Source of the DNA: a virus
Direction: 5' to 3' (one strand)
Virus record (IMG/VR): IMGVR_UViG_3300031885_000041
Location: 1-42,477 of that record
Length of the DNA stretch: 42,477 nt
Notes under the pieces: generated by a model
Seen by the model: only the letters and a program-made list of their open reading frames with translations
The model's database searches: none
Told to the model about the DNA's origin: nothing
Part shown: in pieces, positions 1 to 31,207 of the stretch
Numbering within the stretch: the stretch's first letter is position 1
Layout: each line of letters opens with the position of its first letter
Made by a program: the position numbers and the translations under genes

Positions 1-2001
1 ATGCTTTTTACCAGCCTCATCCTCATACCACAATGTTGGGATCATTTCCCTAGTTATTTTCATCGCACGCTTGGAAAGCGAAAATCTTGTTTGCGCAGGT
101 TTCGGCATCAGCTGTTTCTCGCGTTGCATAACCTCTTTCGCTTTAGCCTCGGCCTCACCTTCTCCAAAAAAAGGCCCTTTCCCAATCTGCTCTTCACTAC
201 GTTTGGCACCACCTATGTGCGCTCCTTCATGCGAAATTGTCTCTATGAGGGCCATTTTGACCGCTTCGGCAAGTTGCTTCGGATCGATCTGTCCACCAGA
301 CGCACCGAGTTGCTGCTTCGCTATCTGTTCAATCCTGCTTTTAAATATATGAATCTCGTGGGGATCTTTATCAGGTCCCATTTGCACATGGCCAAGTTCA
401 CCAGCACCCCCGCTAGGATGCACAACAACCTTCTTTACCTTCATTAAAGTGTCGGGAGCGATTCGCTGGACTTCTTGGACTGCTGCCTGTACGGCAGGAT
501 CAAGAGGCTCTATAATCACCTGCATCGCCCTTTTGCTCAGTTGGAATCTGTTTGCGCTTTTCATCGGTCCGAACCTCTCCATAATCTTCTGCGTGGCTGT
601 TTCTTTTGTCAGAATTTCACCTTTTTCAGCAAATTCATCTTCAAGCTCTTTTAAGTAGGTCATAACCTCTTTGATTTTCGGTCCTGGCTTGATGCCCAGA
701 AGACCCATTATCTCTTCACCGTTGAGGATCGAAACCTTTGCTATTGGGATTTTCTGAGATTCTTCCAATTTGCTTCTCAATTCAGGCACGTAATTTTTGG
801 GAGGCAGAGTTCCGAGAGCATCGGCTTCCGCCAATTCAAGGACCGCTTCGACGATTTCGTCGCCGATGTCCCTGACAAATTTACGAAGAGCTTTTGGCGA
901 AGCTGCTGGCAGGGCGATAGGTCTCATATGGTTTTCAACTATCTTCCTGACCGTCTTAATAATGCCATTGTCGAATTTAAGTCTTCTTAAAACAGCTTCT
1001 GCTATTTCACCGCTGACCTTCTCATGACCAAAAAATCGTATCTTGCCATCTATAAACTCCAGTGATTGCGGCTTTCCGATATCATGGAGGAGTGCAGACA
1101 ATTGCCCGACAACAGTTGGAGGAGCGTTGGACAGCACCAGCAGGGTGTGCTTATACACATCCCCCTCCTGATGATTGCTCGGATCATGCTTGATACCTAT
1201 CAATCCATAAACTTCTGGAAGGACATAGTTCAGCAAACCCGTCACTTTCATCAGCTGGATCGCCCGATCAGTCTTTCCGAGTTTCATCATCTTAATCAGC
1301 TCTTCTTGTATTCGCTCCCACGATATTTTTTGGATCTGCTCAGCATTGCGCCTGACAGCTCTGAGCATCGAAAGCGGAATATCCCAACCATACTTGACCT
1401 GAAATCTGATCAACCGCATCATCCTGAGAGGGTCTTCCGAAAACATCTTGTCAGGAGAAACCTGCGGATGACCACGCAGAATCCCCTTTTCAATATCCCC
1501 CTTGGACGAACCTGTAAGATCCACTATTTCGCCAGAAGACAGATCCCTCAGGAGCATATTCACAGTAAAATCCCTGCGCTGCACATCTTCTGGCAAAGTG
1601 GCAAATTCGGTAGCCCTTTGCCGAGAAGTAGGATCAGGATATGTTTCCTTCTGAGTATCTGCTATGTCTATTTCACCACCTTTCGTCTTGAAGAGTTCAT
1701 CCTTGTGTGTAACATCCTCCTTGAAACCAATGTGCCATATTGGATAGGCCGCACCAAGCTGTCTCGGTGTTGTAGTTTCTTCAGGGAACATATGTTTCAC
1801 AAAATGCGCAAGCTGTTCGGCTCCGCCCTTCATTTCTACAACGATGTCCAGATCCTTCGACTCTTTCCCCATCAGGGCATCTCTTTCATATCCCCCGACC
1901 GAGAAAACCTTCTTCTCAAATGTGGTTCCTGGTATTATATACAGGAAGAGCCTTTGTATTTCCTGCTCCGCCATGGATGCGCGCTTGGATAAAAAGGACA
2001 T
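1..2001 (-). CDS. CCA-adding-enzyme/HD protein fused to zincin-like domain; polyprotein-like, runs off left edge
   Basis: Open from 2001 to base 1, 667 codons visible, no stop. Start ATG follows GGAG. Residues 9-450 are a class II tRNA nucleotidyltransferase/poly(A) polymerase: GG at 36-37 with R40-D41, metal-binding D50-x-D52, RRDFTVN at 142-148, DPLRMMRLIRF at 190-200. An HD phosphohydrolase domain follows (LLHDIGK around H306-D307, later H326 and H358). Residues 493-646 hold H591-E592-x-x-H595 followed by GEGEAEA at 613-619, the pattern of a small zinc metallopeptidase. The octapeptide [F]-x-L-S-K-R-A occurs at residues 2-8, 485-492 and 639-646, exactly bracketing these two parts; a third part begins at 647 and is cut off. 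Known for the family: addition or repair of the tRNA 3' CCA. Inferred: the SKRA sites separate mature products. The transferase call is firm; the protease activity is a motif-level guess. Confidence 0.85.
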   Translation of the reverse strand, partial: MSFLSKRASMAEQEIQRLFLYIIPGTTFEKKVFSVGGYERDALMGKESKDLDIVVEMKGGAEQLAHFVKHMFPEETTTPRQLGAAYPIWHIGFKEDVTHKDELFKTKGGEIDIADTQKETYPDPTSRQRATEFATLPEDVQRRDFTVNMLLRDLSSGEIVDLTGSSKGDIEKGILRGHPQVSPDKMFSEDPLRMMRLIRFQVKYGWDIPLSMLRAVRRNAEQIQKISWERIQEELIKMMKLGKTDRAIQLMKVTGLLNYVLPEVYGLIGIKHDPSNHQEGDVYKHTLLVLSNAPPTVVGQLSALLHDIGKPQSLEFIDGKIRFFGHEKVSGEIAEAVLRRLKFDNGIIKTVRKIVENHMRPIALPAASPKALRKFVRDIGDEIVEAVLELAEADALGTLPPKNYVPELRSKLEESQKIPIAKVSILNGEEIMGLLGIKPGPKIKEVMTYLKELEDEFAEKGEILTKETATQKIMERFGPMKSANRFQLSKRAMQVIIEPLDPAVQAAVQEVQRIAPDTLMKVKKVVVHPSGGAGELGHVQMGPDKDPHEIHIFKSRIEQIAKQQLGASGGQIDPKQLAEAVKMALIETISHEGAHIGGAKRSEEQIGKGPFFGEGEAEAKAKEVMQREKQLMPKPAQTRFSLSKRAMKITREMIPTLWYEDEAGKKH

Positions 2002-2016
2002 TTACTTCGCTCCGCG

Positions 2017-2370
2017 TTATTTCGGTTTCTGAGCACCTAATGGCAAATTTTGCTGTTGTATCCCAATATTTTGAGATAACAGCCTTGATAGTTCCAATAA
2101 TACCTGTTGGGTAAAAGCTGGATTTAGACCATTCAAAAGGTTTTTTGTGAGCGAAATTCCTTGGCCAATCGCACTACTTGGAGGCATTTTTTTCATAGAA
2201 AGCGTCCCTGGGTGTAATCTAACAAGCTTCCCTCTTAATCTTGATATAAACTTCTGTCTGCTCTTAGGTGGTACTCTATAAAACAGGAACTGTATAATCT
2301 TAAACAGCGATTCCGCCGTTTTCTGGGCGGCGGAGACCTGCGCTCGTTTGCTCAATGGGAAATCGCTCAT
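2017..2370 (-). CDS. Small basic protein with N-terminal SKRA motif
   Basis: 117 residues, family not recognised. The start at 2370 is preferred over one at 2400 because GAGG lies six bases upstream and because it places the motif DFPLSKRA at residues 3-10, near the N terminus as in the neighbouring fused protein. The remainder is basic and probably helical (KFISRLRGKLVRLHPG), with a Gln-rich tail. It lies between the left-edge fused protein and an 87-residue gene whose 3' end overlaps it only in the discarded upstream region. If SKRA is a cleavage site, about ten residues would be removed. No catalytic motif is visible. Confidence 0.7.
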   Translation of the reverse strand: MSDFPLSKRAQVSAAQKTAESLFKIIQFLFYRVPPKSRQKFISRLRGKLVRLHPGTLSMKKMPPSSAIGQGISLTKNLLNGLNPAFTQQVLLELSRLLSQNIGIQQQNLPLGAQKPK

Positions 2371-2380
2371 GTCAGCCTCA

Positions 2381-2644
2381 TTATTTCGATTCCCTAGCAC
2401 GTTTGGATAGTGTAAATCTCGCCTTTCCCTTTAACGGCTTGATTTCGCTGTGACGATCTTCTTTGACCATATCAGCTGGAATACCGTAGATCTGGGCTAT
2501 CGGCTTGACTTTGTAATAGGTTTCTTCCTCATCCGTGACGACATCCACGACCTCGAACTTCATTCCTCCAAAACCTTTCAATTCAATCCTGTCTCCCACG
2601 GAACGGGGACCGTCAGCTAGTTTAAAAAGTGGAAACCTAGGCAT
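2381..2644 (-). CDS. Small protein with C-terminal SKRA motif
   Basis: 87 residues, not recognised. The start at 2644 has AGGAG eight bases upstream; an upstream in-frame extension to 2779 would overlap the previous gene by over 130 bases and is rejected. The N terminus reads MPRFPLFKLADG, which looks like a degenerate form of the RFPLSKRA motif. The middle (GDRIELKGFGGMKFEVVDV) looks like a small beta-rich fold. The C terminus ends RFTLSKRA followed only by RESK, so here the motif lies five residues from the end of the chain. That position argues that the motif is recognised in its own right and is not only a linker between domains. Confidence 0.75.
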   Translation of the reverse strand: MPRFPLFKLADGPRSVGDRIELKGFGGMKFEVVDVVTDEEETYYKVKPIAQIYGIPADMVKEDRHSEIKPLKGKARFTLSKRARESK

Positions 2645-4511: not shown

Positions 4512-7500
4512 TTATTCATCTTCCTTTGCCACCATCAATAACCACCTGTTTCCATCAGTATGAATCAGGTTATATGTCTTTTTTTCCTTTTTGCCCTTTA
4601 ATCTAAACATTATTTTAGATTTACCCCACTCGATTTCCTCATATGTCCCTGAATCATAGACTTCTACCTTCCCTGAACCATACTCGCCAGTGGGAATCTC
4701 CCCTTCAAAGCGCATATAGGAAATTGGATGATCTTCTGTTTTCACCGCTAGCAATTTAGTCTTCCCGTCAGGCAGTTTATGTTTCGGAACCGCCCACGAA
4801 GACATTGCCCCCTCATCATTCTCCAGTCGCAGATCCCAATGTTGACCAGCCCTGTCCGCGAGATGATTCTGTATCACAAACCTGTGTTTATTCTTTTTTT
4901 CAACCTTGCCCTCTGGTTCGGAAGTTTCGTCAAATTCGCGCTTCTTTTTGTACGAAGATAACGTATCCCTAGCATCACTTTTAGGCGGTTTTGACAATGT
5001 TTTTAAATATTCATTATATTCCTTATCCAAATCTTCCATAACCACCTCTATTACCTTTTCCGTCTTTTTTTCTCTTTTCGGCTTATTCTTTTTATATTCA
5101 TTATATTCCCTATCAAGATCCTCTTCAATTACAGTGATCACTGGACTCATCTCTTCTTGTGTATCTACACCATGATGAAGTATCTGTCCCTCGATAACTG
5201 CCTTCATCTCTTCAGGATTTTTAAGACCCTTTAGCATATTATTCAGCTGACTCCAATATGTTGGGTCATCGTTGTGCCCAGCAGCTTCCATACCAAACTG
5301 ATAAAACATATCATCATCATCACTATCTTTACGCAGATTCTTTATATGTTCGATTGGAGCCCAATAATATTTGCTCGGCATAATAAGTGCTTTCACTAGT
5401 ACATATTCATCTGGCGCAAACATTGATCCTTCAGCATTTAAAGATGCCCGGTGGAAATCATGACCATATATCTCAGAAATTCTATTAGATTTCCCCTTAA
5501 GTAGCTTTCGAACCGTCTCTGAGTTTTGTATGGCCGTTGTACCATCTAAAATACCTGGTAATTTACTATTTATGTCCCCAAGAAGTACAAGATCAGCGGA
5601 TGTCAATTTCCAGACACCAAGGACGCGAAGCAATTTAACATTTGACTCAGATTTTCCTCTAAGAGGCTTCCCGCCACGCATCTTCGGTTTTAATCCACAC
5701 TCAAACCCATTAAAAACCGGCCCAGCTTCTTCAGCGTCGATGGTTTTTTCTTCTATTTTTGAAACAAAATACGCCCCCCCATCACTAAAATGTGGAATGC
5801 CATCCATCTCACTATCTGTTACCCAATCATCTAGATGATATTTTTCATAACCACCCCGCTCAAGCAACATTTTATCTACCCACTGCTGAAGTAATGGCAA
5901 ATAAATTTCTTCACGTTTTGTGGGTAATAATGACTTATTTTTAGATGATTTGTTTTTTATAATAGGTTTATTCTTAATCTTTCCATCATCATCTTTTACA
6001 AATTTTTTGCCAAATTCACGACCAGCAAGCCATCCCACAAACAATTCGGAATCTATGGCCGAAAAATCTCTCACAACATCATATAATATAAGACGCCTTT
6101 GTAGACTAATATATCCCTGGTCATGCACAATACGATCTATTGGTCTATTTTTTTCTATTTCTGTAGATATGTATTCGTTTGTTAAATTATACACATCCCA
6201 GTATTTCTTAAGAAATATATTTCTAGCAAGTTTGCCAAGCTGCTGATAAGCAATCTTTTCTTCCACATCATTATCGGTACCAATATTTTCCATTGCCTCT
6301 TGAGGGACACTACGTTCGCCTTTAGGAATCCACTCACTTCTTTGATATGGTTTCCAAAAAAGGCCGCCTCTCTGCTCATATCCTTTGCCCACAGCATCTC
6401 TAAGAGTAAAATGCACATTGTCGTGTGGACATATAAACGGAACATCAAGCATCCACTGTGGAGGCTTTTGTCCTCTTTTTTGATCATTTTCTGACAAGTC
6501 AGACGCTTTTTGTTCAGACTTGTATTCGCCAGGGGGCATAATTTCCATCTTTTCCATTAAAGCGGTTTGTGCTTCTATTCCCGCAGGTGTTTTCCAAAAC
6601 GAATTGTTCCAATCTATGGAGGTTAATGGTACTCGCTGGCCAGGACACGAATCATTTGGACACCATGTGTGCATATAGGGCACATTTCTTTGAGCCCGCA
6701 ACTTATTTATTTCATTAGATATATCATTTTCTTTTTCTTTCATATTAAGCATAACAAGCTTTAATGCCTCATATTTTTTTTTACTAGTTTCAATCTTTTC
6801 AGAAACTCGTTGCTTTTCTTGTTCGGTTTCTACATCTTCAAGACTTACACCAGATTGCATAATCTGATGTTTTATTTTATCAATTTCATCATTCAATTTT
6901 AAAATTTTAGCTTTAACATCAGATAAATCCACACTTTCTAGCTGTTCTGCCCTTTTTTGGCATTCCAGACAAGTCCATAAGTTTTTTTCAACAGTAGTTC
7001 TTTTCATCTTAGAAATATCGGCATTTTTTGACTTTTGCGCCTTACAAATCGCACATACCGGATATCTCACTTCTTTATGGTCATTGTCTTCAGCGACAAT
7101 TTTAGTCATTTCCCTGCCAAGTGTTTTATAACAACAGGCATCTATAGGTTCCATATTAAACCCTTTCGCGAAATATTCTTCTAAAATCTTGGCTAAAATT
7201 CTATTTATATCTTGGACATATTTTTGAGTTTTTGGAAGATCTTCTACAAGCATACCTCTTTTAATAGCTTCTGCATCATTTTCATCAAACATTCTAAACG
7301 GCGTATCTTCTACGGTTTTTCCATATTTAGATCTCTTTTTTCCTGCATAATTTCTACCACTATTTATTTTGAACCATTTTGCGCCAATAGTCATAACAAT
7401 CGCTGGTAGAATCCACGATTGTATTAGCTGTTTTTCATTGCGCAACAACTCCCACGCCTTTGGATTCATAAATAATTTGCGTAATGACGGGCCTTCACTT

Positions 7501-10500
7501 AAAGCTTCTGGAGTAAAATACAAACGCGCTTCTTCTGACATCTTTGGTATTGTCGTAATAATTGGCCATCGCACCAATACATTTCCCTTATCATCTGCCA
7601 GTGGTTCAACCTTACCAAAAGCCGATGGACGAAGATGTTCTACTGGTTTTTCCAACAAATCTTTACCAATGTCTTCATCTTCTCCAGCTAACATTTGACT
7701 AACAATATCTTCCTCATCACTTTTTGGTATGGAAAAATCTTTTTTAGACTTCTCAGTTTTAGGAGATACCTCGGTCTTAGAAGGCATTTTAGTTTTAGAC
7801 GCAATATTATCAAGAATTTCGTCTATTAGCTGATCACGAACCAACACCTTTTTAGTTTTAGTGGGTTTTGTTGGTTTTACAGATGTTTCAGATTTCGGCT
7901 CAACTATATCCTTGAAAGTTTTTTCCGTGGATTTGATACGAACCTCTTTGGGCTTTTTTGGCATTTCAACGGGTTTTTCTGTTGGTTTTTGTAATAACTT
8001 ATCAATAGGTGGTTGTTTTAAAACAGGAATTGCAACCACTGGCACTGGAGATTTTTTAATAGGTCTTCTTGTTGCCTCCTCTTCCTCTTCGGAGCCAAAA
8101 CCTAAAGATTCTTCTTCACCTTCCGTCTCGGATTCTTCGGCCAGTTCTGGATATTCTTCCCAAAACTTTTCCACATTTTCGTCATCGATTCTAGCGGCAA
8201 TTTTCCAAATCATATTGAGTCGCTTATAAGCTTCTACCTCTTGTGGGATTTTAGTACCAGTGGGATCTATAATAGTATTTGTATAACTACCAGGCACAAG
8301 ATCTGCAGCACGCTCAAGCCTATCTTGTAATCTAGAGGAAAGATCTACAAAAGCGTGGCCATATGTGGTAATTTCAGGTTTTTTACTTTTACTGCGATAA
8401 AATGTTACAAATCCGCGTGCATATCGATCATCATCATAATTCTCTAAACCGGCTCTCATTGCCAAATCATAATGATGAACCTGCTTCCTGCTAGTTTTTC
8501 CCAATGCGTCAGTTTCAACACTTTGTGTGAAATATAACCTATCACCATCCCAAAGCCAAATATATTCTTCAACAATATCACTAAAGGCCGACTTAACTAA
8601 CCCATCCCTTACTGACATTGCAAATGACCCATCATCGGACATATTATATGATCCCACATTTCCAGTTGGTGAAACTGTTGTACCGCCAGTCGGTTGTGAT
8701 ATCAACGCATCTCCTGGTGGCCAAGTTGGATCACTTATATTCTTTCTGCCCCATGTGTCATTTCCATAATCATCATCGTCTTGAACATCAGAAAGAGGCT
8801 TCTTTACTTTTCCATAAGTTTCTCCAAGAGACCACGGAACACGAAGACTGCCCTTGTTATGTAAGGTACTAACATCACTGCGCATACCACTACCCTTAAC
8901 AACGCCCGTAGTAACATCATCCCAATCTTTATTAAATTCGTCAAGCAATTCCTTTAACTCTTTGCGTAAGTCATTGATTTGTATCTCGCGTTTTAAACCA
9001 AATTCAATATGTATTCCACTACCACCACTTTGATAAAGCATAGGAATACTGCCAAATTTCTCCTTGATTTTGCCAACAAGCTTTCGTGCATATTTTTCGG
9101 CCTGCCCAAATTCAAACTTACCGTGAATATCTAAATCAACAAAGCCAAGATTGGTTTTGGTTTCAAATACCTCGTGAATGGCAAGAAGCCTCCGCTTTGT
9201 CCAGTAAAAATAATTGTGCGGATCTTCATTCTTTTCGGGATCATCATTTGTTATAGTAATTTGCTTTCCATCGTGATTTCTCTTTAAAATCTTTTGATTT
9301 TTGCCTATGCCAAGATAAATAAGAATTGGCTTTCCCTTAATTCGTACCATGATTTTCTTACGAATATCAGATTTTTCATAATGACTACGGATCTGCTTTC
9401 TTGTTAATTTTACATCATCCTTATCTATAAGAATCTCATCCCACTTCTTATCACCCTCATCCTTTTCATCGTCTGCCTTATTGCGCACAATTTTCTCAAA
9501 TCTTACTAAATCATACTTATGTTTTCCAATCTGCTTTTTCTGTTCTTCGGTCAGTTCGTCTAAAAATGGATGATTCTCAACTCCTTCAAGTTGCACTACA
9601 CTCATCACCTTTACTTTATGTCCCCACGGAGTTATAAACTCTTGTCCCTCTTTATATTTCCCACGCTCACGACTAATGCGAGTGGTGTAGATGCCTTTTC
9701 CACTTTTTAGTTTATACTCAAGTCCCTTATATTCTTCCTGTGGAAATGGAACTGTCGGCAAATCGTCAGCCTCATTGATGTTTTTAAAAAGCTCAAATCT
9801 AATAACAACAAAACGACAATTTTTACCAAATTTCTGTTCTAATGATTTTGCTATATGCTTGCCAAAAGCCTTCTGAATGCGCCCAAGGCTCATAGTTTCT
9901 TTAGATGTTATCTTAATATCGCACACACGAGAACCCGAATAGGTCATACATTTAACAACTTCATCTATTTTTACAGGGACATCATTTGCCCTTATCGTCA
10001 TTTGTCTTTTGCCAGACTTAATCTCTTCAGCGTATTGTCCTGGAAAATACAGTGTTCCAGCAACATCTTTATATGCGGCCCGCTTAGACAACATTATCGT
10101 AGTGGCCTTTTTTTCAGGAATTTGGGGCCAACGTTTTATAATATGTTTTTCAACTTCATCTTTTAATAATGGTTTTAACTCGCTTTTGTCAATTTTTCTA
10201 CTAAATTCTTCTTCATATTCAGTTCGTATTTCTTCTAATAAATCTTCATTTTCATTGAGTTCTTTCTGTAGCTCTTTTAATACAATGTCACGCGCTATAA
10301 GTTGTTCATTTGTTAAAAATGGGACAGTTAGTGTCTTTTCCTCATCAGACCATTCTTCAGATGCGCGTTTGCTAAACATAAAAGTAGCCACTCTGGTTCC
10401 ACCAAAACCACTCATACCGTCATTTGGGGGGTAATCGCTAGCAATGCCAGTGACTTTTGTAATCATTTTATTGGCACGGACTAGGTAATGCGTTTGTCCC

Positions 10501-12818
10501 CTAGAAAATGGCTTTTTCCTAAATAGGAAATTCTGTACAGCGCCGACGCCAGCAGCATTGGAAATCGCTATTAATTGATAAATGTTATAGGATCCCGAGG
10601 CATTAACGTCATATCCAGATTTTTGTACCGAATTAATAACAGAATTTACTCTGTTCATAAAATCCTGTTGTGCTACGCTATCTGCCACCCTGCGCACATC
10701 TTTATTGATTATAACATTCTTTCTGGAGAATGTCCTCTGGAATTTGGAATATGTGTCAGGATTGTTTTGGGCCACAAACAGCTTCACTATGCCATTACGC
10801 ACTACCGCGTCAGTTATGAACTGACCAACTAGCAACTTCAACTCGCTTATCATATATGGAGTATCAACATTAAGCCCCATCTCTTTCAATTTGGCAGTGT
10901 CGATAGCATATCCAAGATACTTGTCACCCACTTTTTTAACAACGCCTGGTAAATTACCAGGACTGTATTTAATAGTTGTCCCTTCCTTTCTGGCAACTAC
11001 GGCTTTTGGATTTGCCCGTACAAATTCCTTTACTGCCGCTTCATCGACAGGAACCCTTACCCAAATATTAGTTCCACGCATTTTTTTGCTAAAATTCAAC
11101 CACGCTTCCCCAAGTTTGCTATATTCTTCAGACGATATGCCAGTTGCACGCTGGGCTTCAGGATGTGCTGCCAACTTACTTACGAAAGATCCAAATTGAA
11201 CCTGCGTAGATCCAAATGATGTATCAGAATCGCTTACAGTATAACCTCCACCAGATTCTAAAGTGCTAATGATTTGATATGCCTTTTGTATATCTACACC
11301 ACGCACATCTTTCAATCCGGTGAAATTCGTCGTCGGCTGGACGATGCCCTTTGGCCCAAACTTTTTCTCAAGAACGCTCAGAACTTCATCGGCATAGGCA
11401 GCGCGTTTCGATAAGAAGATGGACGCTTTCTTAATTTCTTCACCTGTAATATTTTCCTTTACCTTGGCGGATTCCATTTGTTTGTCTGTGGGCATCTTTA
11501 CCTTAATCGTCTTCTCTTTTTCAAAAAATGCCTTCGCTAACCTATGATTGCCATCGACAATCTGATTTTTATACATAAGTATTGGATAACTAAGATCCGC
11601 ATCACGAATCATTTCCATCTCGCCAGCATATTGTTCGGGATTGTTCAAAACATCCTGTGGACTGTATCCCCAGGATTTTTCAGCGAGTTGGGGGCGCAGG
11701 CTTTCCACCGGCATATTCCTGATCGGATTGCTTTCTGTGAGATGCCACAATTTTTCGATATTGTAAACATTCCCCTGTTCATCATCATATATCTGATTAA
11801 TCTCCCACTCCTTATCTTCTGATTTATTGCTTTTTGCAAGTTCAAAATTATCTATATGTTTAACATGAAATTCATTCATTGTGGCGTCTTTCGGTTTCTT
11901 GTCTTCACGGAATCTAGAAAAGCTTTGATGTCGCAAACCACCAGGCAAACGCTCTTGAAAATTTATTTCAACCACAAAAAGACCCCTTTTTAATTTACTC
12001 TTAATCGCTTCTTCATCTTTTTTTGAGAAATTACTAATTTCGCTTATATGATAGAGCTTACCCTGATAGTATTGCCCAAACAACGCCTTTAACTTACCCT
12101 TATCCGACATCTCGTATTCATATACGACATAGTCATCGGAATCACTCTTACCAAGTCCGGCACCTTTAAATTTATACATAACATCTTTAGGCTTTGGTTC
12201 ACCTTTTCCAATTTCTTTATAATGATATGGTTTGTCTTTAATTTTAAGAACTATTCCCTCACCACCACTATCAACTGCCTCCTTCATAACATTTTGCCAT
12301 TTTAAAAATGGAAACTGTTTTGTAATTTGAATTCTAGATGAAGGCTTTACCAATTTTTCTAAGATGTTGCGACGAGTTGAAAATGATTCTTTTGTAATAT
12401 TTTTACCACTAACCCACAAAATATCATACAGGAATATCTTTAATTCACCTGGCAAATTTTTTGCCACTTCTTGTGAGTTTTTTGGACTAGAACCGGCCAA
12501 AGAAGTTACCTTTCCCACGTCTTGTTTTCCATTATAAAGATATACCAATTCTCCTTCTACTATTGTATTATTTGGTAAAAAATTCAAAGCATTTGTTAAT
12601 GTTGGAAAATTGTCGGTTTTTTTTTCGCCCTTTCGGCTATAAATATTGATCTTATTATCCGATTTAATAATCTGTAATTTCCAACCATCGTATTTGATTT
12701 CAACAACTATGTCTTTTTCGCTATATGTTTCAAGCAATTCTTCTGGATTATTTATCTGCGTCAATCTCATAAGAGAAATTGGTTTTAAAGATGATCTTTT
12801 CAAAATTAAAAAGGTCAT
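4512..12818 (-). CDS. Giant 2768-residue LigD-like multi-enzyme protein: DNA ligase, ParB-like, ASCH, AEP polymerase, zinc regions, 3'-phosphoesterase
   Basis: One uninterrupted frame. Residues 15-313: ATP-dependent DNA ligase with nucleophile K42 (KYDG), EGIVLK at 187-192, YKFK at 215-218 and a LigD-type OB domain. Residues 345-445: ParB/sulfiredoxin-like, DGNHR at 422-426. Residues 474-819: unknown. Residues 820-914: charged helices. Residues 920-1010: ASCH domain (KRQMTIR); 1028-1110: second PUA/ASCH-like domain. Residues 1136-1345: AEP/LigD polymerase with D1228-x-D1230, SGGSGIH ending at H1270, LRVPWSL at 1325-1331. Residues 1400-1735: unknown part then Lys/Pro/Glu-rich linker. Residues 1740-2545: unknown with Cys pairs 1922/1925, 1950/1953 and 2053/2058. 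Residues 2645-2765: LigD 3'-phosphoesterase (H2652, H2660, D2662, R2664, H2697, Y2701). SKRA motifs end at 473, 819 and 914. Start overlaps the HNH stop (ATGA); the ribosome site is weak. Domain calls are firm; the joint role in end joining is inference. Confidence 0.9.
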   Translation of the reverse strand: MTFLILKRSSLKPISLMRLTQINNPEELLETYSEKDIVVEIKYDGWKLQIIKSDNKINIYSRKGEKKTDNFPTLTNALNFLPNNTIVEGELVYLYNGKQDVGKVTSLAGSSPKNSQEVAKNLPGELKIFLYDILWVSGKNITKESFSTRRNILEKLVKPSSRIQITKQFPFLKWQNVMKEAVDSGGEGIVLKIKDKPYHYKEIGKGEPKPKDVMYKFKGAGLGKSDSDDYVVYEYEMSDKGKLKALFGQYYQGKLYHISEISNFSKKDEEAIKSKLKRGLFVVEINFQERLPGGLRHQSFSRFREDKKPKDATMNEFHVKHIDNFELAKSNKSEDKEWEINQIYDDEQGNVYNIEKLWHLTESNPIRNMPVESLRPQLAEKSWGYSPQDVLNNPEQYAGEMEMIRDADLSYPILMYKNQIVDGNHRLAKAFFEKEKTIKVKMPTDKQMESAKVKENITGEEIKKASIFLSKRAAYADEVLSVLEKKFGPKGIVQPTTNFTGLKDVRGVDIQKAYQIISTLESGGGYTVSDSDTSFGSTQVQFGSFVSKLAAHPEAQRATGISSEEYSKLGEAWLNFSKKMRGTNIWVRVPVDEAAVKEFVRANPKAVVARKEGTTIKYSPGNLPGVVKKVGDKYLGYAIDTAKLKEMGLNVDTPYMISELKLLVGQFITDAVVRNGIVKLFVAQNNPDTYSKFQRTFSRKNVIINKDVRRVADSVAQQDFMNRVNSVINSVQKSGYDVNASGSYNIYQLIAISNAAGVGAVQNFLFRKKPFSRGQTHYLVRANKMITKVTGIASDYPPNDGMSGFGGTRVATFMFSKRASEEWSDEEKTLTVPFLTNEQLIARDIVLKELQKELNENEDLLEEIRTEYEEEFSRKIDKSELKPLLKDEVEKHIIKRWPQIPEKKATTIMLSKRAAYKDVAGTLYFPGQYAEEIKSGKRQMTIRANDVPVKIDEVVKCMTYSGSRVCDIKITSKETMSLGRIQKAFGKHIAKSLEQKFGKNCRFVVIRFELFKNINEADDLPTVPFPQEEYKGLEYKLKSGKGIYTTRISRERGKYKEGQEFITPWGHKVKVMSVVQLEGVENHPFLDELTEEQKKQIGKHKYDLVRFEKIVRNKADDEKDEGDKKWDEILIDKDDVKLTRKQIRSHYEKSDIRKKIMVRIKGKPILIYLGIGKNQKILKRNHDGKQITITNDDPEKNEDPHNYFYWTKRRLLAIHEVFETKTNLGFVDLDIHGKFEFGQAEKYARKLVGKIKEKFGSIPMLYQSGGSGIHIEFGLKREIQINDLRKELKELLDEFNKDWDDVTTGVVKGSGMRSDVSTLHNKGSLRVPWSLGETYGKVKKPLSDVQDDDDYGNDTWGRKNISDPTWPPGDALISQPTGGTTVSPTGNVGSYNMSDDGSFAMSVRDGLVKSAFSDIVEEYIWLWDGDRLYFTQSVETDALGKTSRKQVHHYDLAMRAGLENYDDDRYARGFVTFYRSKSKKPEITTYGHAFVDLSSRLQDRLERAADLVPGSYTNTIIDPTGTKIPQEVEAYKRLNMIWKIAARIDDENVEKFWEEYPELAEESETEGEEESLGFGSEEEEEATRRPIKKSPVPVVAIPVLKQPPIDKLLQKPTEKPVEMPKKPKEVRIKSTEKTFKDIVEPKSETSVKPTKPTKTKKVLVRDQLIDEILDNIASKTKMPSKTEVSPKTEKSKKDFSIPKSDEEDIVSQMLAGEDEDIGKDLLEKPVEHLRPSAFGKVEPLADDKGNVLVRWPIITTIPKMSEEARLYFTPEALSEGPSLRKLFMNPKAWELLRNEKQLIQSWILPAIVMTIGAKWFKINSGRNYAGKKRSKYGKTVEDTPFRMFDENDAEAIKRGMLVEDLPKTQKYVQDINRILAKILEEYFAKGFNMEPIDACCYKTLGREMTKIVAEDNDHKEVRYPVCAICKAQKSKNADISKMKRTTVEKNLWTCLECQKRAEQLESVDLSDVKAKILKLNDEIDKIKHQIMQSGVSLEDVETEQEKQRVSEKIETSKKKYEALKLVMLNMKEKENDISNEINKLRAQRNVPYMHTWCPNDSCPGQRVPLTSIDWNNSFWKTPAGIEAQTALMEKMEIMPPGEYKSEQKASDLSENDQKRGQKPPQWMLDVPFICPHDNVHFTLRDAVGKGYEQRGGLFWKPYQRSEWIPKGERSVPQEAMENIGTDNDVEEKIAYQQLGKLARNIFLKKYWDVYNLTNEYISTEIEKNRPIDRIVHDQGYISLQRRLILYDVVRDFSAIDSELFVGWLAGREFGKKFVKDDDGKIKNKPIIKNKSSKNKSLLPTKREEIYLPLLQQWVDKMLLERGGYEKYHLDDWVTDSEMDGIPHFSDGGAYFVSKIEEKTIDAEEAGPVFNGFECGLKPKMRGGKPLRGKSESNVKLLRVLGVWKLTSADLVLLGDINSKLPGILDGTTAIQNSETVRKLLKGKSNRISEIYGHDFHRASLNAEGSMFAPDEYVLVKALIMPSKYYWAPIEHIKNLRKDSDDDDMFYQFGMEAAGHNDDPTYWSQLNNMLKGLKNPEEMKAVIEGQILHHGVDTQEEMSPVITVIEEDLDREYNEYKKNKPKREKKTEKVIEVVMEDLDKEYNEYLKTLSKPPKSDARDTLSSYKKKREFDETSEPEGKVEKKNKHRFVIQNHLADRAGQHWDLRLENDEGAMSSWAVPKHKLPDGKTKLLAVKTEDHPISYMRFEGEIPTGEYGSGKVEVYDSGTYEEIEWGKSKIMFRLKGKKEKKTYNLIHTDGNRWLLMVAKEDE

Positions 12819-13672
12819 AAGTCACCAACATCATTAAATCTAACAACATTGCTTAACCAATTACCCCACTGCTCGTCAGTAAAATCATGTTTTCCTAAAT
12901 TACAATTTTTACAACAAGAAACACAATTTTCAATCAAATATCCAATGGTATTATTAACTCTATCTATGCCGATATTATTTTTGGTAATAGTTCCACAATA
13001 TTTACAAGGCAAATCATTAAAAGTTAAAAACTGATCAAATGTAAGGTTAAAACATATTTGTCTAGTTTGAGCGCCCCTTATAAGCCCATTGTAAAATTCT
13101 TTAAAATATCTTTTTCTAGACAAAACGCGTTCTACAATTCTTGATAAATTATATTTTCTATAATTTACAATTTGTCTGAGATATGACTGCCATTCTTTAT
13201 AATCAATATTATTTTTGGCATAATTACATATTGTGCAACAAGATGTACAATTACTTATTGAATATCCTAATTTATTATTTTTTCTATCTATACCTATCGT
13301 TTTGATTTTACTACCACAATATGTACATGGCTGTTGCCAAAAAGATACAAACTCTACAAACGCTAAGTCAAAACATAATTTTCTCTTTTTAGCATCTGCT
13401 TTATAGGTGCGAAATTTACATTTTATCCCACTTTTGTGTTTAATATAGCAGTTGTGAGCAGAAATCTTATGAGTTAGTGCTAATTTATTCTTGTTTGTTT
13501 TGTAGTACTGTTTTTGCCAAACAAGCATTTTTTCTTTATTTTTTTCGTATCGCAACTTATTATATGTTTTTCTACAAGACTTACACCACGCCTCAAACCC
13601 GTCTTTTGTGGCTTTGTTTTTGTTAAACTCGTTTTTATTCAATAAATTTTTACATTTAGAACACTTTTTCAT
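12815..13672 (-). CDS. Free-standing homing-type endonuclease with two HNH-like domains
   Basis: 285 residues, start after GGAG. An N-terminal zinc-binding part (CSKCK and CKSCRK, residues 4-36) precedes two copies of the same zinc-bound HNH-like core: CTYCGS with GIDRKNN and CCTICN near residues 115-165, and CKYCGT with GIDRVNN and CCKNCN near residues 225-270. Each copy has four Cys positions and the ID-R-NN catalytic region. Family knowledge: such proteins are selfish endonucleases common in large phages that cut DNA near their own insertion site. The gene is wedged between a virion-block gene and the giant LigD-like gene, whose start it overlaps by four bases, so it may have displaced that gene's original ribosome site. 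The protein is very rich in Lys, Asn and Tyr, unlike its neighbours, which fits recent acquisition. Confidence 0.85.
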   Translation of the reverse strand: MKKCSKCKNLLNKNEFNKNKATKDGFEAWCKSCRKTYNKLRYEKNKEKMLVWQKQYYKTNKNKLALTHKISAHNCYIKHKSGIKCKFRTYKADAKKRKLCFDLAFVEFVSFWQQPCTYCGSKIKTIGIDRKNNKLGYSISNCTSCCTICNYAKNNIDYKEWQSYLRQIVNYRKYNLSRIVERVLSRKRYFKEFYNGLIRGAQTRQICFNLTFDQFLTFNDLPCKYCGTITKNNIGIDRVNNTIGYLIENCVSCCKNCNLGKHDFTDEQWGNWLSNVVRFNDVGDL

Positions 13673-15408: not shown

Positions 15409-18400
15409 TTATACTCCTGGTGACCCACCAGCTCCAGCCCCAGGCCCAAGTGGTGGTGTTCCACCTGGAATCTCAGGTGCGCCGGCCCCTGGTGCCCCCC
15501 CTGGTGCCGGTGGCGGAGCTAACTCTGGCAATCCACCACCCAGTCCACCACCTCCCATCGGAGGCATTCCACCGCCTCCTGGGGCCCCTGCTAACCCACC
15601 AGCCTCTGGAGGCATAGCCATACCAGCACCACCTTCTGGCTGTTGTTCTCCCGCAGGCTCTGAAATAGGTTTTTCTGGGTCAAGTGCACGCAACTCACTC
15701 AACGACATTGTCGCTAAAGCTTGCTCTTCACGCTGCACAATCGCAGTATCAATGCGTTCCTGACGCATCTTTACCTTTTCATCATCATAATTCAATCCAA
15801 GACTTCTATATAAAGTCTGTACTGAGGCCTGTTTCGAGCCAACAAGCCCAGTAATATTCTGGATGTAATCACTTAAATCATATAGATTCATCTGATTCCA
15901 TTCAACTTCAGGAACAATTAGGCGCTTCTTGCCATCTTTGTATTCAAAGAAACCCTGTACTTCACTAATTGGAGCAAATACCTTGTTTGTTAACCAACGG
16001 GCTATCATGTTTCTGAAATTAAAATACCGCTGTCTTAACACCTCTAACCCAATTGATGCAGAGGCATATACTGAACTTTCCTGATCTATAACAGCGGGCG
16101 GAATCATTAGCGCTGTATAGATATTCTTTATAATGAGATTCATATCTTCAGAGATCTCAAGTACCTGCCCAGAAGCACCGACGCGCGTAATATCTACACC
16201 CGCGTGAGTAACAAGCTTGAAATCCTTATCATATTGCGCCTCTTCAAGCATCTGCCTGAAATATTCAAGATCTTCTGCCGTTGCGCGATAATCACCATCT
16301 CCAGTACCACCAACTTTAACAATGGTGATTGGGTTCACTAAGCCGTCAGCTTGGGCGTATTTACAGTTTCCCTGAATAGTAATTTTCCCATTACGGCGGG
16401 TAACAAATAAACCATTTGGGACTTCAAAACAAAAAACCTCGCCAGAATATGGCGTCTTTCTAAATGTGGCTCCGCCACCATTTCCACTATCTTTGCGATT
16501 ACCATATATTATTGGAAAGCATCCATAAACAGTATTTGACCAAGCAACAGACCAATACAATTTTCCCTGTCCATTTTTGGCACGATCTACAAGTGGGGCA
16601 TATCCACACTTAAATGCTATTTCCTGTATATCATCGGCCAGTTGTTTAGAAATGGTGGAGTATCTATAGCCAATTGACGATGTGCCATATTTGCTTGGAT
16701 TTATTCTGGCGTCACCCTCGGACAAGGCTGTAAGAAGAATGTCAAGCAATTCAGGTGATAATTCTTTAACCCACTGCGGAAGATGTTTATTATGGCTATT
16801 TGTTCCTATTTCATCAGCAAAATGATTACTTAGCGCCTTATTTGAAATTTTCCAATTTTCCATCGAGCAGTGATTATTTAATGAAAAGCCCCTGGTATTT
16901 TCACTAAATCGAATTCCCAAATGTTTGTCACAATAACCAGCAAGCATTGTCATAGAATTGCGTATGGAATCTATATGTTCTGATTTAACACTTTGATTAC
17001 ATCCAACTCCATACTGATAAGTACTTGTATTATAAGAAATACATCCTTCTGCGACCAAATGTCCTAGGATCTTCATATAATCCTCAGCGGGAATCTTATA
17101 ACCACATACATCAACTTCTGAAATTTCTTTGCCTTGCCAATCAACTACACAGCGGGTTTTGTAAAAATAGCCCTTCTTTATATTTTGCGCTTCTATAAAA
17201 TCAAAATTATGATAGCCATTTCCATGAGATCTGCTTTGTGCTAACCACATCCTGTGTCCTGGTGTTACAAGCATATCTATCTTTTTGCCAGAAAAGCGAT
17301 ACATATCACCATCATAATGTTTTTTAAAACGATCTACCGGCTTTTGATATTCCAATTGATTTGTGTTGGAATTGAAAGTGCCAATAACATCATCGTCTGT
17401 AACTTCATCATAAAATTTGAAACCATCTTTGGTTAATACCTCTGTATCTGTTGAATAGCATTCGCGAAGCTTGTCATAAAGCATTAAGTCTTTAAACGCA
17501 CTTACTATAATACTGGTTCCACGAACATCATAAGGGCTCGAAAGCATTTTTAAATGAGACACATTGAAGTTATCTAGCCTAATATCCTGACCAGTCCTCA
17601 CGGCGTGAATGATATTTGGTGGTATCTGCTGTCGAAGTTGGACATCAGCAGGGTTATTACTCAGAACAAGTCGCTGTAATACTTGGTCGGGTCTTAATGA
17701 AATAAGGGGTTCGCCACCCAATACCGCCTTTTTTACGTGTATATAATCTGGGTTTTGAATAATGAATCTAGACCATTTACCAGTGCCCTCATCAAATTCA
17801 CAAAATGGGAAAACCTCACCCATTTTCCAGTGTTCTAACGCCAAATCACCAAGCATAGTAAGGGCATCAGCCTCTTCCATCATATCTTCAAAAAACACAC
17901 GCACTTTTGGATCATGACATTTGAGGTTAATTTTACTAATTGGATATGTTGCATGTAGTGTAATCACATTACGCACAATTGGATGCAATAGAAAAAAGTT
18001 TCTTATCCAGGCGTTAACTGTTGTCCTATCCCGTGGCAGATTTAGGTTCGCCATCGTAAAAAGAGGACTATAAACCTCAGGAGCCAATCTTTCTACGCTA
18101 GAACCAGACGAAGTAGCTGCGCCACCGCCAGAAGTACCAACGCTTGCGGCTATTTTTCTGATGCTTTCGGCCCTTATATTTTCGGACATTTGTTGTTTAT
18201 AAGCTTCACTGTGTACTACAGCACCAAATGGTGATATTTGATTTGAACCTGTAACACTAGATCTCCGTGCATTGCCCATACTGACACCATCTTGTGCGGA
18301 CAACCACGCACCCCTACTAATCTTATTTTCATCAGTAGCTGAAGGGGTGGGCATTGCACCACGCTTGAGGTGACTACTTTCATATGTTCCACCCTCAACT

Positions 18401-18525
18401 ATAGTGCCTCTGTTAATCTCTTCTTCAATTGCTCCCTTCCTATAATCAGACAAACCACCAGCCAATTTTGGAGAAACCCTAATAATTTGGGGCCCGGTTG
18501 GTCTTGCGACTCTTCTTGACATCAT
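15409..18525 (-). CDS. Portal protein interrupted by an intein
   Basis: 1038 residues before splicing; removing residues 356-720 leaves a 673-residue portal, a normal size for large phages. The portal forms the dodecameric ring through which DNA enters the head. Evidence: residues 155-355 match the N-terminal portal region (FFLLHPIVRNVITLHATYPI, GDLALEHWKMGEVFPFCEFD), and after the intein come an alpha/beta part (YRATAEDLEYFRQ), MIPPAVIDQESSVYASAS at 807-824 and LEVLRQRYFNFRNMIARWL, typical of this family. The C-terminal 80 residues are Gly/Pro/Met-rich and probably disordered. Its ATG overlaps the TerL stop (AGAGGTGA site), as expected for a TerL-portal pair. An unusually long disordered N terminus (1-150) precedes the core. 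Confidence 0.85.
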   Translation of the reverse strand: MMSRRVARPTGPQIIRVSPKLAGGLSDYRKGAIEEEINRGTIVEGGTYESSHLKRGAMPTPSATDENKISRGAWLSAQDGVSMGNARRSSVTGSNQISPFGAVVHSEAYKQQMSENIRAESIRKIAASVGTSGGGAATSSGSSVERLAPEVYSPLFTMANLNLPRDRTTVNAWIRNFFLLHPIVRNVITLHATYPISKINLKCHDPKVRVFFEDMMEEADALTMLGDLALEHWKMGEVFPFCEFDEGTGKWSRFIIQNPDYIHVKKAVLGGEPLISLRPDQVLQRLVLSNNPADVQLRQQIPPNIIHAVRTGQDIRLDNFNVSHLKMLSSPYDVRGTSIIVSAFKDLMLYDKLRECYSTDTEVLTKDGFKFYDEVTDDDVIGTFNSNTNQLEYQKPVDRFKKHYDGDMYRFSGKKIDMLVTPGHRMWLAQSRSHGNGYHNFDFIEAQNIKKGYFYKTRCVVDWQGKEISEVDVCGYKIPAEDYMKILGHLVAEGCISYNTSTYQYGVGCNQSVKSEHIDSIRNSMTMLAGYCDKHLGIRFSENTRGFSLNNHCSMENWKISNKALSNHFADEIGTNSHNKHLPQWVKELSPELLDILLTALSEGDARINPSKYGTSSIGYRYSTISKQLADDIQEIAFKCGYAPLVDRAKNGQGKLYWSVAWSNTVYGCFPIIYGNRKDSGNGGGATFRKTPYSGEVFCFEVPNGLFVTRRNGKITIQGNCKYAQADGLVNPITIVKVGGTGDGDYRATAEDLEYFRQMLEEAQYDKDFKLVTHAGVDITRVGASGQVLEISEDMNLIIKNIYTALMIPPAVIDQESSVYASASIGLEVLRQRYFNFRNMIARWLTNKVFAPISEVQGFFEYKDGKKRLIVPEVEWNQMNLYDLSDYIQNITGLVGSKQASVQTLYRSLGLNYDDEKVKMRQERIDTAIVQREEQALATMSLSELRALDPEKPISEPAGEQQPEGGAGMAMPPEAGGLAGAPGGGGMPPMGGGGLGGGLPELAPPPAPGGAPGAGAPEIPGGTPPLGPGAGAGGSPGV
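16366..17460 (-). mobile_element. Intein with LAGLIDADG homing endonuclease inside the portal gene
   Basis: 365 residues in frame. It begins at Cys356 (CYSTDTEVLTKDGFKFY, block A), has block B VTPGHRMW with the conserved T and H at about 421-424, two LAGLIDADG-type helices (ILGHLVAEGC near 486-495 and LLTALSEGDAR near 597-607), block F SGEVFCFEVPNGLFVTR, and ends ITIQGN at 720 before the +1 Cys721. The residue before the terminal Asn is Gly where most inteins have His. That is tolerated in some families but can slow C-terminal cleavage. Both endonuclease motifs keep an acidic residue, so the element may still be able to home. Confidence 0.92.
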
Positions 18526-20378
18526 TCACCTCTAAGCTTTGGCACATATGCCAATATGGGTTTGGGGAGTCTACCACCACTTGGTGTGTTTTGATTCACC
18601 CTAAATCCGCAGGTTTTATCAAATTTATATGCCAGATAAGCATATATTAAAGCCATAAAACCATCATTCTGTTCCTTTCCTTTTACATACATTTGGTATG
18701 GCATTCCGTTTCTAATTGTTGTTCTACTTTCCATTGAACAACAATGTCTCACAAACCAGGCCAACCGTTCATAGCTTACCCAAGGGAAACGAATCTGTCC
18801 GTGACGCAACAGATTGAATACCTCATTGATAATTCTATCCTTTTCTACAACTATTTCAAGCTCTTCTTTATTATATTTTACTCCTCCAGATACAGTTGGA
18901 GCATTTCTTACAGTTTTAAACTTTTCCCCATAGATTCTCTTGAGTTCGCCCGATAGATCTTCGGCGAATCCAATGTCGCCCATCGCCGACCTAACGCTAT
19001 ACACACGAAACATCCTTTCCACGAATTCCTTTTTCGATTCGAGATCAATTCTTTTGAGCCGTTCGACATACTCCACGCTGAATCTTTCTTGGTGATCGAC
19101 AGATAAGACACAACCCGCGCAAAAAGATTGTCCACGTTTTATGCCGTCCATATCAGGCTTGCCACCCCAATCTACTCCAAAATATGTTATTTTAGCATCT
19201 TTTTCAATTGATTTGGCCATTGGCCTATCTGCATCACGACATGCTTTATAGATTTCCTCAAAGGTAATTGGCATACCCTGGCCAGAGTGAAATTCTCCAA
19301 GAATCTCATTGTTCCAAATAATCTCGGAGTTAAGTGGGTTGCTATCTGGTTTCTGCTTTGCGATGATTTCTTTAGTGAATTCAGGGATAAAAAGCTGATT
19401 ATAATGAAAACCCACAAAATCTGCATTTTCTCTACCAGGAGATGGAATCCATTTCCCTCTCTCAATCGCCTCAACCTTATCCTGTTCACAGCCACAAGTT
19501 GGACATTTTACTACATTACCATAAAGCCATATCTCTTTTTCCCACTTGTCTGATTCGGGCGTATAAAGAAGAAAGTAATTTTTACACTCAACACAGCCAA
19601 GATAAAATCTTCTCTGATCCGATTGTTCCCACATACGATGAAATAAGGTGCCTTTTTGTCGCGGTGTGCCAAAATACACCTGAACCCCACCAGGTTGCGG
19701 GCCGTGTTGTGCACGAGTTAAACATTTAATGGCTTTGGCAATTGCTACTTCAGTCATATCTTGAACTTCATCGCAAAACAATATATCAAAAGTACGACCA
19801 AGAACCCTTGTTCCTTCATTACCCAATGATTCGCACCACAAGGTATTTCCATTTTTGAACTGTTTATAATACAAACTATCCGTGGCTTCCCTCTTACTAT
19901 CTTTCTGTGCCACAATAAATGGTTTAAGCTTACCAGGATTTCTTTTATCTTCAAAATCAGGAACTTCAGCAGATCCATTGATCATCTTTTCTAACTTATC
20001 TTTAGAAAAGGCATGCATAATCTCAAGCTGTGGAAACGCATGCATTACTCTTACTGGCGGAATACCATTTTTTCCAAATACGCCACTGGCTGTAAAAAAC
20101 AGCTCAAGATTATTTGCGGCTGTTGTTGCAGCAACCTGACGACCCTTAACCATAACAACTGGCTTGCCATTATCAGACATAGAAACATAAGCTATATGTC
20201 TATATATGTCAGCCATCCATTTCCAACCATTTCCGGTTATTTTAAAGGGCCTTCCGTCTAGTGTAAGATAGCTCTCCGCAAACGAGACGGGATCCATCTT
20301 TAGGACTTCCTGTTTCAAGGAATCAAAACTATTTTCGGGGCGCCAGATATCACTGGCCGATAGGGTTTTTAATCTCAT
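18522..20378 (-). CDS. terL: Terminase large subunit (TerL), DNA-packaging ATPase-nuclease
   Basis: 618 residues. The motor ATPase part has an unusual Walker A, VMVKGRQVAATT at 75-86: the position of the usual invariant Lys is Ala, while a Lys (K78) precedes the loop, as in the deviant motif of lambda-type terminases. Walker B is DILFCDEVQD with D203-E204, and motif III is YFGTPRQKG at 235-243. A zinc-binding insert has C262/C265 and C292/C295. The RNase H-like nuclease has acidic residues D403 (FGVDWGG), D468 (MGDIGF) and D572 (EQNDGF). It cuts concatemeric DNA and pumps it into the head through the portal, encoded next in the operon. The start lacks a clear Shine-Dalgarno sequence. Confidence 0.92.
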   Translation of the reverse strand: MRLKTLSASDIWRPENSFDSLKQEVLKMDPVSFAESYLTLDGRPFKITGNGWKWMADIYRHIAYVSMSDNGKPVVMVKGRQVAATTAANNLELFFTASGVFGKNGIPPVRVMHAFPQLEIMHAFSKDKLEKMINGSAEVPDFEDKRNPGKLKPFIVAQKDSKREATDSLYYKQFKNGNTLWCESLGNEGTRVLGRTFDILFCDEVQDMTEVAIAKAIKCLTRAQHGPQPGGVQVYFGTPRQKGTLFHRMWEQSDQRRFYLGCVECKNYFLLYTPESDKWEKEIWLYGNVVKCPTCGCEQDKVEAIERGKWIPSPGRENADFVGFHYNQLFIPEFTKEIIAKQKPDSNPLNSEIIWNNEILGEFHSGQGMPITFEEIYKACRDADRPMAKSIEKDAKITYFGVDWGGKPDMDGIKRGQSFCAGCVLSVDHQERFSVEYVERLKRIDLESKKEFVERMFRVYSVRSAMGDIGFAEDLSGELKRIYGEKFKTVRNAPTVSGGVKYNKEELEIVVEKDRIINEVFNLLRHGQIRFPWVSYERLAWFVRHCCSMESRTTIRNGMPYQMYVKGKEQNDGFMALIYAYLAYKFDKTCGFRVNQNTPSGGRLPKPILAYVPKLRGE

Positions 20379-24547: not shown

Positions 24548-25315
24548 CTATCCCTCTAACAGGTTTTGAATCATGTGCTTTTTGGCTATTTCTGCAGTCA
24601 TGAGCCTGCTCAGGGGAATAATTGGTAGCAGTTTGTATTCGGACAGCATATCCATGGATTTCTGCGAATCCATTCTTAATATCTGGTTAACCTGTTTTTT
24701 AATACTGCTTAGTGGCAGTGTGCTGAGACCACCCCTATATTTAATTATAGCATCCTTTAGTTCTGGATCAACTACCAAATCAAATTTAAGTGCTATCCTC
24801 ACAGCTCTCAAAATTCTGCGAGGGTCGTACCCAATTGTTAATTCTGGATTTACTGGAGTCCTTAAAATTTTGTTTTTTGTATCATCAAAAGCTTTGTTAG
24901 TAATATCAATTGGCTCTTTTGCAAAATCCATAGGTTGTAGAATTGTGTTTATTGTAAAATCCCTACTAAACATTTCTTTTTGCAATGCAGTCAATTCAGA
25001 CATTCCATTTTTAGCAAGTTCTGCCTCTATGCCGGGCAGTATAAAATTGTTGGAAAAATCCAACCTAATGTTTTTAAAATCCAAACTACTATGCCCATCA
25101 TCATATGACCTAAATTGAGCATCAGGCCATTCTTTACTAGCAAGCATTGCGAGGGCAAAAGAACCCTTGTCGCCAGTAGTTATATCTACATCTTTTACCT
25201 GCGTAGCAACACCAAACAACTTATCTCTTGGTAATCCACCAACAACATATGGCTCTAAAAGCCCATTTTTTTTGGCTAGGTCACCCAATGTGTTCAGTAA
25301 CTCCGAAAGCAACAT
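24548..25315 (-). CDS. CCA-adding-enzyme/poly(A)-polymerase-type nucleotidyltransferase, short
   Basis: 255 residues. The head domain is intact: VVGGLPRD at 24-31, metal ligands D42-x-D44 (KDVDI), SRDFTINT at 117-124 and DPRRILRAVRIALKF at 164-178. These are the class II tRNA nucleotidyltransferase motifs, including the region that selects C and A. The chain ends about 75 residues later, so it lacks the HD domain seen in the other copy (at the left edge) and most of the tail that grips tRNA in cellular enzymes (usually 370-450 residues). It may act on tRNA 3' ends or another RNA. It is placed among virion genes with no tRNA gene nearby. The family is firm; the substrate is open. Confidence 0.87.
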   Translation of the reverse strand: MLLSELLNTLGDLAKKNGLLEPYVVGGLPRDKLFGVATQVKDVDITTGDKGSFALAMLASKEWPDAQFRSYDDGHSSLDFKNIRLDFSNNFILPGIEAELAKNGMSELTALQKEMFSRDFTINTILQPMDFAKEPIDITNKAFDDTKNKILRTPVNPELTIGYDPRRILRAVRIALKFDLVVDPELKDAIIKYRGGLSTLPLSSIKKQVNQILRMDSQKSMDMLSEYKLLPIIPLSRLMTAEIAKKHMIQNLLEG

Positions 25316-30289: not shown

Positions 30290-31207
30290 TTATACTTCTT
30301 CTTCGTCCGTTTCCGACAGAACATCTCCAAGCGTCATATTAATAGTCTCAAGTTTCTGTAACAACAAATCATTTCCAACAGTCGCATCTTCGGCTCTTTT
30401 AGATAGTGGGAATCTTACTTTCGATATTTTTGCACTTGTCATAACATCAGGCACTTCAATATCTTTAAGGGCTCGTTCTAACCCCGCACGATCCTCTGGA
30501 GTTATCATCCAAAGATCCGTTTCGATTTCTTCATTGGACGATGGAATGGTTTTTTTCATAACCATTTCCGACAGCTCCTCATCGGACGAATCCTGCTTTT
30601 TTTCTTTAGATTTTGTGGCAATGTCTTTCAATATTTCACCGATGTCTTTCTGAACTTCGGTTTTCTTCTTGTGTTCAGCACGCTTACGGTCCTGACGGAA
30701 CTCACTACCAAGTCCAAGTGGATCGCTAATTTTTGTATCAAAGATACCAGCCGCGCTGAGTAACTCATATTTTTCTTTTGGAATGCTAGAAACGAATTTT
30801 GAAACAAAAGTATCATCTGTGGAAAGTTTTTCTTGCATAGTTTGACGAAACAATTCGACATCTTCTGTTGTATTAGCATCAACAATACTAGCAGCTAATC
30901 TGTGTATGGGGGTATCTTTATATAATACGGTAAGATTACTTCCCTTGGCATCTAAAATAACACGCCAATCAGAAGACTTTACAACCTGCTGCTCATCTTC
31001 AGGCAAATTATAAGTCCTAACCAAAAATTCATTACCATCATCATCTGCCTGTATCTGCCACAGGTCTTCTGTACTGTCACCCTTAAGGCGGAAAAGATCG
31101 AAAGCAACACGCACTAATCTATCCTTATTTCCCTCTAAAGGAAGCCTGTTTGGATCTGGCATAACAACTTTGGCTACATCAGACCAGTCAAGTTCAAATT
31201 TTACCAT
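30290..31207 (-). CDS. Hypothetical protein with SKRA motif near C terminus; first gene after the intergenic region
   Basis: 305 residues with a strong GGAGGA site. The N-terminal 110 residues look globular (LWQIQADDDGNEFLVRTYNL, WRVILDAKGSNLTVLYKD). Charged helices follow (165-215) and then VRFPLSKRA at 264-272, leaving an acidic 33-residue tail. It is the first gene after the only large noncoding gap, so it probably heads the virion operon. If SKRA is cut, the tail is a removable C-terminal peptide. Function unknown. Confidence 0.72.
   Translation of the reverse strand: MVKFELDWSDVAKVVMPDPNRLPLEGNKDRLVRVAFDLFRLKGDSTEDLWQIQADDDGNEFLVRTYNLPEDEQQVVKSSDWRVILDAKGSNLTVLYKDTPIHRLAASIVDANTTEDVELFRQTMQEKLSTDDTFVSKFVSSIPKEKYELLSAAGIFDTKISDPLGLGSEFRQDRKRAEHKKKTEVQKDIGEILKDIATKSKEKKQDSSDEELSEMVMKKTIPSSNEEIETDLWMITPEDRAGLERALKDIEVPDVMTSAKISKVRFPLSKRAEDATVGNDLLLQKLETINMTLGDVLSETDEEEV

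Follow-up and report, generated by a model that had tools for sequence, protein, structure and literature searches.

A giant viral gene next to the portal gene encodes ligase, AEP polymerase and 3'-phosphoesterase domains of LigD type in one modular protein

All three catalytic domain types of bacterial LigD were confirmed, at the level of sequence, in a single viral protein, in the order LIG-POL-PE and with their catalytic residues kept. The protein is encoded by one minus-strand open reading frame (12818..4512, 2,768 aa; module order Lig-ParB-Lyt-ASCH-AEP-Zn-PE) in the window, the whole 42.5 kb stretch (42,477 nt) analysed here, which is a linear fragment available as an IMG/VR virus record. 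Relatives of the giant protein occur in at least 14 other IMG/VR records, identified by scans of viral contigs, the largest of which measure 302 and 340 kb. The favoured explanation, given about an even chance, is that large, tailed, uncultured phages produce here a modular polyvalent polyprotein, which would be delivered by the virion and act in Ku-less end healing, fill-in and sealing.

The ATP-dependent DNA ligase (NTase and OB parts, residues 9-329, 11832..12794, minus strand) was recognised by Pfam as DNA_ligase_A_M (PF01068; residues 22-202, E 1.2e-29) and by NCBIfam as NHEJ_ligase_lig (residues 33-313, E 2e-25). Comparison with cellular LigD by hhalign gave E 2.2e-19. The motif I lysine K42, located in EIKYDGW, is invariant in 10 sequences. 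For the LigD-type 3'-phosphoesterase (PE; residues 2620-2768, 4515..4961, minus strand) a match to Pfam LigD_N (PF13298; residues 2650-2752, E 4.2e-28) and to cellular LigD (hhalign, E 3.5e-40) was detected. An active-site alignment with P. aeruginosa LigD showed that the residues of its motifs QxH, HxDxR and EDH are retained, with Q2650, H2652, H2660, D2662, R2664, E2695 and H2697 present. Stand-alone archaeal-type PE domains are among the best PDB matches.

The AEP polymerase of LigD-Pol type (residues 1123-1343, 8790..9452, minus strand) was matched weakly by LigD_Prim-Pol when the window sequence was used alone (E 0.004-0.014, under the Pfam cut-off), and single-sequence searches against PDB gave no match. 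With the family profile PriS alone was found in PDB, at E 0.24 and with the alignment on motif II. LigD_Prim-Pol is the Pfam family matched by all 11 members with an AEP segment (best E 1.4e-5), and hhalign placed the segment, at E 2.4e-4, within the polymerase portion of cellular LigD. Structure prediction, a check suggested in the earlier note, was carried out with residues 490-1350. The AlphaFold model, weak in the AEP part, had its top placement on LigD polymerase domains (M. tuberculosis 2r9l, Z 8.5; P. aeruginosa 2fao, Z 7.9; Methanocella 5dmu, Z 7.5), followed by Prim-PolC. Motifs I (D1228/D1230), II (SGGxGxH, with H1270) and III (D1315) are invariant, and FVDLD, SGGxGxH and hD are retained across the family. 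A chance match was rejected on the basis of the Pfam family over 11 members and the fold placement. The Pfam, NCBIfam and hhalign results and the motif and active-site alignments agree with the earlier note, which had described three LigD catalytic parts with intact residues, and the domain positions on the 2,768-aa ORF bear out its order Lig-Pol-PE in one frame.

ParB-like, ASCH-like and zinc-binding parts had been proposed between these enzymes and were recovered. The ParB/Srx-like domain (residues 345-460, 11439..11786, minus strand; phrog_17560, E 4.6e-13) contains a DG-x-HR motif conserved in four sequences; it is mobile, its position varying among the relatives. The ASCH domain (residues 916-1010, 9789..10073, minus strand) was below the threshold for PF04266 (E 0.0021), yet its YqfB-like fold reached Z 10.4 to E. 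coli YqfB. The zinc-rich region (residues 1750-2406, 5601..7571, minus strand) has conserved zinc-type cysteines in the pairs 1922/1925 and 1950/1953 and at 2053, 2058 and 2130. On the 302-kb contig (G007) a separate 609-aa paralogue of this region, in which Cys pairs of this type recur, is encoded at G007:C1:260852-262681. Scans with the full-length protein and with the zinc region returned nothing or one already-known contig only, and BFVD fold searches yielded no match with E < 0.001.

The module list of the earlier note had missed one further part. Residues 498-812 (10383..11327, minus strand), between ligase and AEP, form a predicted domain with pLDDT 91.8 in the AlphaFold model, for which the best PDB matches, all weak, were i-type lysozyme (Z 5.7), GH80 chitosanase (Z 5.5) and T4 lysozyme (Z 4.3). 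E521 and D530 are invariant; comparison of the domain profile with PDB sequences gave chance matches only. By this weak match of the model the domain is designated lysozyme-superfamily-like. The name permuted LigD, used before, undersells a protein whose Lig-Pol-PE modules are set apart by lysozyme-like and ASCH domains and by a zinc-rich stretch of 600 residues, and in which other modules vary between relatives.

Ligase and PE are present in a single ORF in five relatives, with 3474, 3178, 2851, 2718 and 1362 aa. In other relatives the modules are divided over two or three adjacent genes. The latter observation, made for G001, G008, G009 and G012, would agree with an assembly or frame artefact fusing separate genes in the window. 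However, independent records show these modules in unchanged order within a single frame. The artefact, which the earlier note had named as a possible objection, was rejected for this reason and is regarded as extremely improbable. Codon-position GC is uniform along the whole giant ORF. An HNH-like gene abuts the giant gene (window 12815-13672); its homologue in G007 is on the opposite side of the giant gene, which suggests a mobile element.

Gene splits and domain losses are located between modules. In G009 the ligase and AEP-PE are on separate genes. In L039 an N-terminal zinc domain is followed immediately by SKRA and then by the lysozyme-like domain; this protein lacks ligase and PE, and neither was found elsewhere in the contig. 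One in-frame TAG separates a 2,273-aa part from PE in L001 (14042-14044), which may be recoding, gene fission or a sequence error. The giant protein of L037 contains an intein-like insert (residues about 2689-3050) that breaks PE beside the active site. TopoIB, DJ-1/PfpI, PolyA_pol/HD and 2H domains were detected as extra modules in relatives. The median identity to the window amounts to 63% for LIG, 63% for ASCH, 67% for AEP and 70% for PE, and to 30-41% for the other modules. Hence, the enzyme kit is under strong constraint. No relatives of AEP and PE were found in 50,697 GenBank phage records; the PE query used there matches LigD on 498 plasmids. For AEP, no cellular or prophage relatives were found in a single scan that covered 84,980 genomes of bacteria and archaea.

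The internal SKRA sites noted earlier were verified at residues 470-473, between the ParB-like and lysozyme-like domains (11400..11411), at 816-819, right after the lysozyme-like domain (10362..10373), and at 911-914, right before ASCH (10077..10088; all minus strand). Three other minus-strand genes of the window encode the motif: a PolyA_pol/HD protein with SKRA at residues 5, 489 and 643 (1..2001), which is part of the giant protein in G009, a small conserved protein in which SKRA is close to the N-terminus (2017..2400) and a protein in which it is close to the C-terminus (30290..31207). The first of these is one of two PolyA_pol/CCA-type nucleotidyltransferase genes in the window; the other is located at 24548-25315. 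F-x-L-SKRA was observed eight times in window proteins, at 0.22 expected and a maximum of two in 200 shuffles. None of the 25 SKRA of the giant proteins falls inside a mapped domain, although such domains make up 61% of the residues; because the relatives are not independent, the P value of this placement overstates its significance. Within the family the motif is seen at domain borders only. On the 302-kb contig, which has 307 ORFs, all five SKRA are confined to two of them, the giant gene and that of a protein with TopoIB and 2H. The latter (G007:C1:209001-211801, L058) carries TopoIB, 2H phosphoesterase and tyrosine-phosphatase-like domains, and in G009 and G012 a fusion unites TopoIB and PE in one protein.

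Several giant-protein N-termini have variants of the motif, e.g. FPLSIRLAS and LALSLRAS. Internal SKRA are lacking in the compact L035, and no SKRA occurs in the giant proteins of L041 and L085. An S78 prohead protease was not found in eight records. The pattern suits a capsid-targeting and/or cleavage signal; alternatively, it could reflect a tag for targeting or a linker. Giant phages are known for ejected head proteins that are matured by proteolysis, with propeptides cleaved (PMC10052503). The SKRA pattern would fit such a cleavage, but the motif is a different one.

The giant gene is located in the virion block, as stated in the earlier note. Its upstream neighbour is the portal protein gene (15409..18525, minus strand; phrog_16240, E 3e-53), followed by the large terminase (18522..20378, minus strand; phrog_675, E 1.7e-55; GpA_ATPase, E 5.5e-16). 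An intein-like insert, which begins CYSTDTEVLTKDGFKF, occupies about residues 344-722 of the portal gene product. A portal homologue adjoins the giant gene in 14 of 14 loci, with the terminase in 10 of these, and the same small genes usually come next where the locus stretch is long enough. This gene context suggests that the giant protein is located in the virion. Synteny is largely kept between the 302-kb contig and the window; thus, the window most likely belongs to a genome of this class. Ku, reported before as absent from the window, was found neither there nor in the records of 12 relatives, including those of 302 and 340 kb; all these records may be fragments.

The main alternative is an intracellular replication and repair polyprotein that is not packaged and contains the only ligase of the phage. 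Here the ligase would be replicative, and AEP and PE would mend the growing DNA pool. This agrees with the 302-kb contig, where the sole ATP-dependent ligase found is that of the giant gene and an NAD ligase was not found, and with the Pol III alpha, RecA, RuvC and DnaG-like primase encoded in the window. Nevertheless, it is the portal gene and not replication genes that adjoins the giant gene in all loci, a lysozyme-like module is present and SKRA is common to a small protein set only. Furthermore, G008 has a second ligase, and the incomplete 99-kb contig of G006 yielded neither ligase nor PE. We consider the intracellular function rather unlikely. The fixed place in the virion block, the enrichment and border placement of SKRA and the lysozyme-like module argue for the virion; the weak lysozyme-like fold match, the S78 protease not found, the relatives lacking SKRA and the sole ligase of G007 argue against it.

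If the protein is delivered by the virion, its target might be the host or its defence, with the LigD-like parts being offensive or acting on RNA ends. Polyvalent proteins have been interpreted as conflict effectors (PMC5512222), PE acts on 3'-ribonucleotides (PMC8656161), and ASCH of the YqfB-like type, 2H, poly(A)-polymerase/HD and DJ-1/PfpI would fit nucleotide or RNA processing. In contrast, the best-conserved modules are the DNA end-joining trio and ASCH, and TopoIB is a DNA enzyme. A role against the host was judged improbable.

For delivery with the genome and repair of its ends, the favoured reading, the following course is proposed. The giant protein would be targeted into the head together with the SKRA-bearing TopoIB/2H and poly(A)-polymerase/HD proteins and would probably be cut at SKRA into single enzymes. 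It would enter the cell together with the DNA, and the lysozyme-like piece may aid the passage. PE would convert damaged or 3'-phosphate ends to 3'-OH, AEP would fill short gaps or extend ends, and the ligase would then seal. The incoming genome could be mended, perhaps circularised, ahead of phage gene expression and without a phage Ku. This full version, in which a head-packaged polyprotein is cut at SKRA into a complete Ku-independent NHEJ set plus the lysozyme-like and ASCH parts, sister proteins contribute TopoIB, and the set arrives with the genome and heals, fills and seals the DNA ends on entry, is put forward tentatively, as somewhat less than an even chance.

In a survey of bacterial NHEJ, about 3,000 actinobacteriophages gave no NHEJ hits, and the only phages cited are those that supply Ku and rely on the LigD of the host (PMC7719229). 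Searches of the open-access literature turned up no phage for which LigD is reported. A conserved family of large phages with LigD enzymes beside the portal genes would represent a new route of genome protection or circularisation on entry; if true, the virion would contain a ready-made DNA-repair kit. The family would test whether end joining works without Ku, and delivery by the virion makes concrete predictions for virion proteomics. Judged from the sequences, the family may also be a source of modules linked by apparent natural cleavage sites.

The closest known protein is LigD, which is arranged as POL-PE-LIG in M. tuberculosis, as PE-LIG-POL in P. aeruginosa and as LIG-POL in B. subtilis, the last without PE (PMC8656161). 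The same three catalytic types and active-site residues are shared. The giant protein differs by the order LIG-POL-PE, by 2.8 kaa compared to about 0.85 kaa, by the lysozyme-like, ASCH and zinc inserts, by the site in the virion block and by Ku not being found; its order and inserts are outside the known LigD arrangements (PMC8656161). Among plasmid LigD loci, a Ku gene is just upstream in three of five examined. Because the domain arrangement differs and Ku was not found, the protein is not classified as LigD despite its LigD-like predicted chemistry. It behaves as a modular polyvalent protein with a LigD kit and not as a rearranged LigD, since modules come and go and ligase and PE are lost or on separate genes in relatives.

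Domains of the ParB, lysozyme and 2H types are described for polyvalent phage proteins (Iyer et al. 2017, PMC5512222). Likewise, the present protein is giant and multidomain, with many unrelated domains in one polypeptide that vary between relatives, with lysozyme-like and ParB-like parts, with 2H in relatives and with virion genes nearby. The hub domains of the polyvalent network include MPTase, DdrB-ParB, MuF and ART; here a ParB-like domain was seen, and the Pfam scans gave no MPTase, MuF or ART. In contrast to the described polyvalent proteins, it has no detected metallopeptidase domain and has SKRA motifs. LigD and NHEJ are unmentioned by Iyer et al. (2017), and Primpol domains are given there for conjugative elements only (PMC5512222). 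The polyvalent concept fits, with the LigD enzymes as a cargo unmentioned there.

The mycobacteriophages Omega and Corndog, as far as they are described where the NHEJ survey cites them, combine a phage Ku with the LigD of the host (PMC7719229). The use of NHEJ by a phage would be shared with them, in mirror image, as here it is the LigD enzymes that are present, with no Ku found. In the archaeal split NHEJ the activities are on separate proteins. The AEP model can be placed on the Methanocella Pol and the best PE matches in PDB include the stand-alone archaeal type, but in the phage family the activities are mostly united in one polyprotein.
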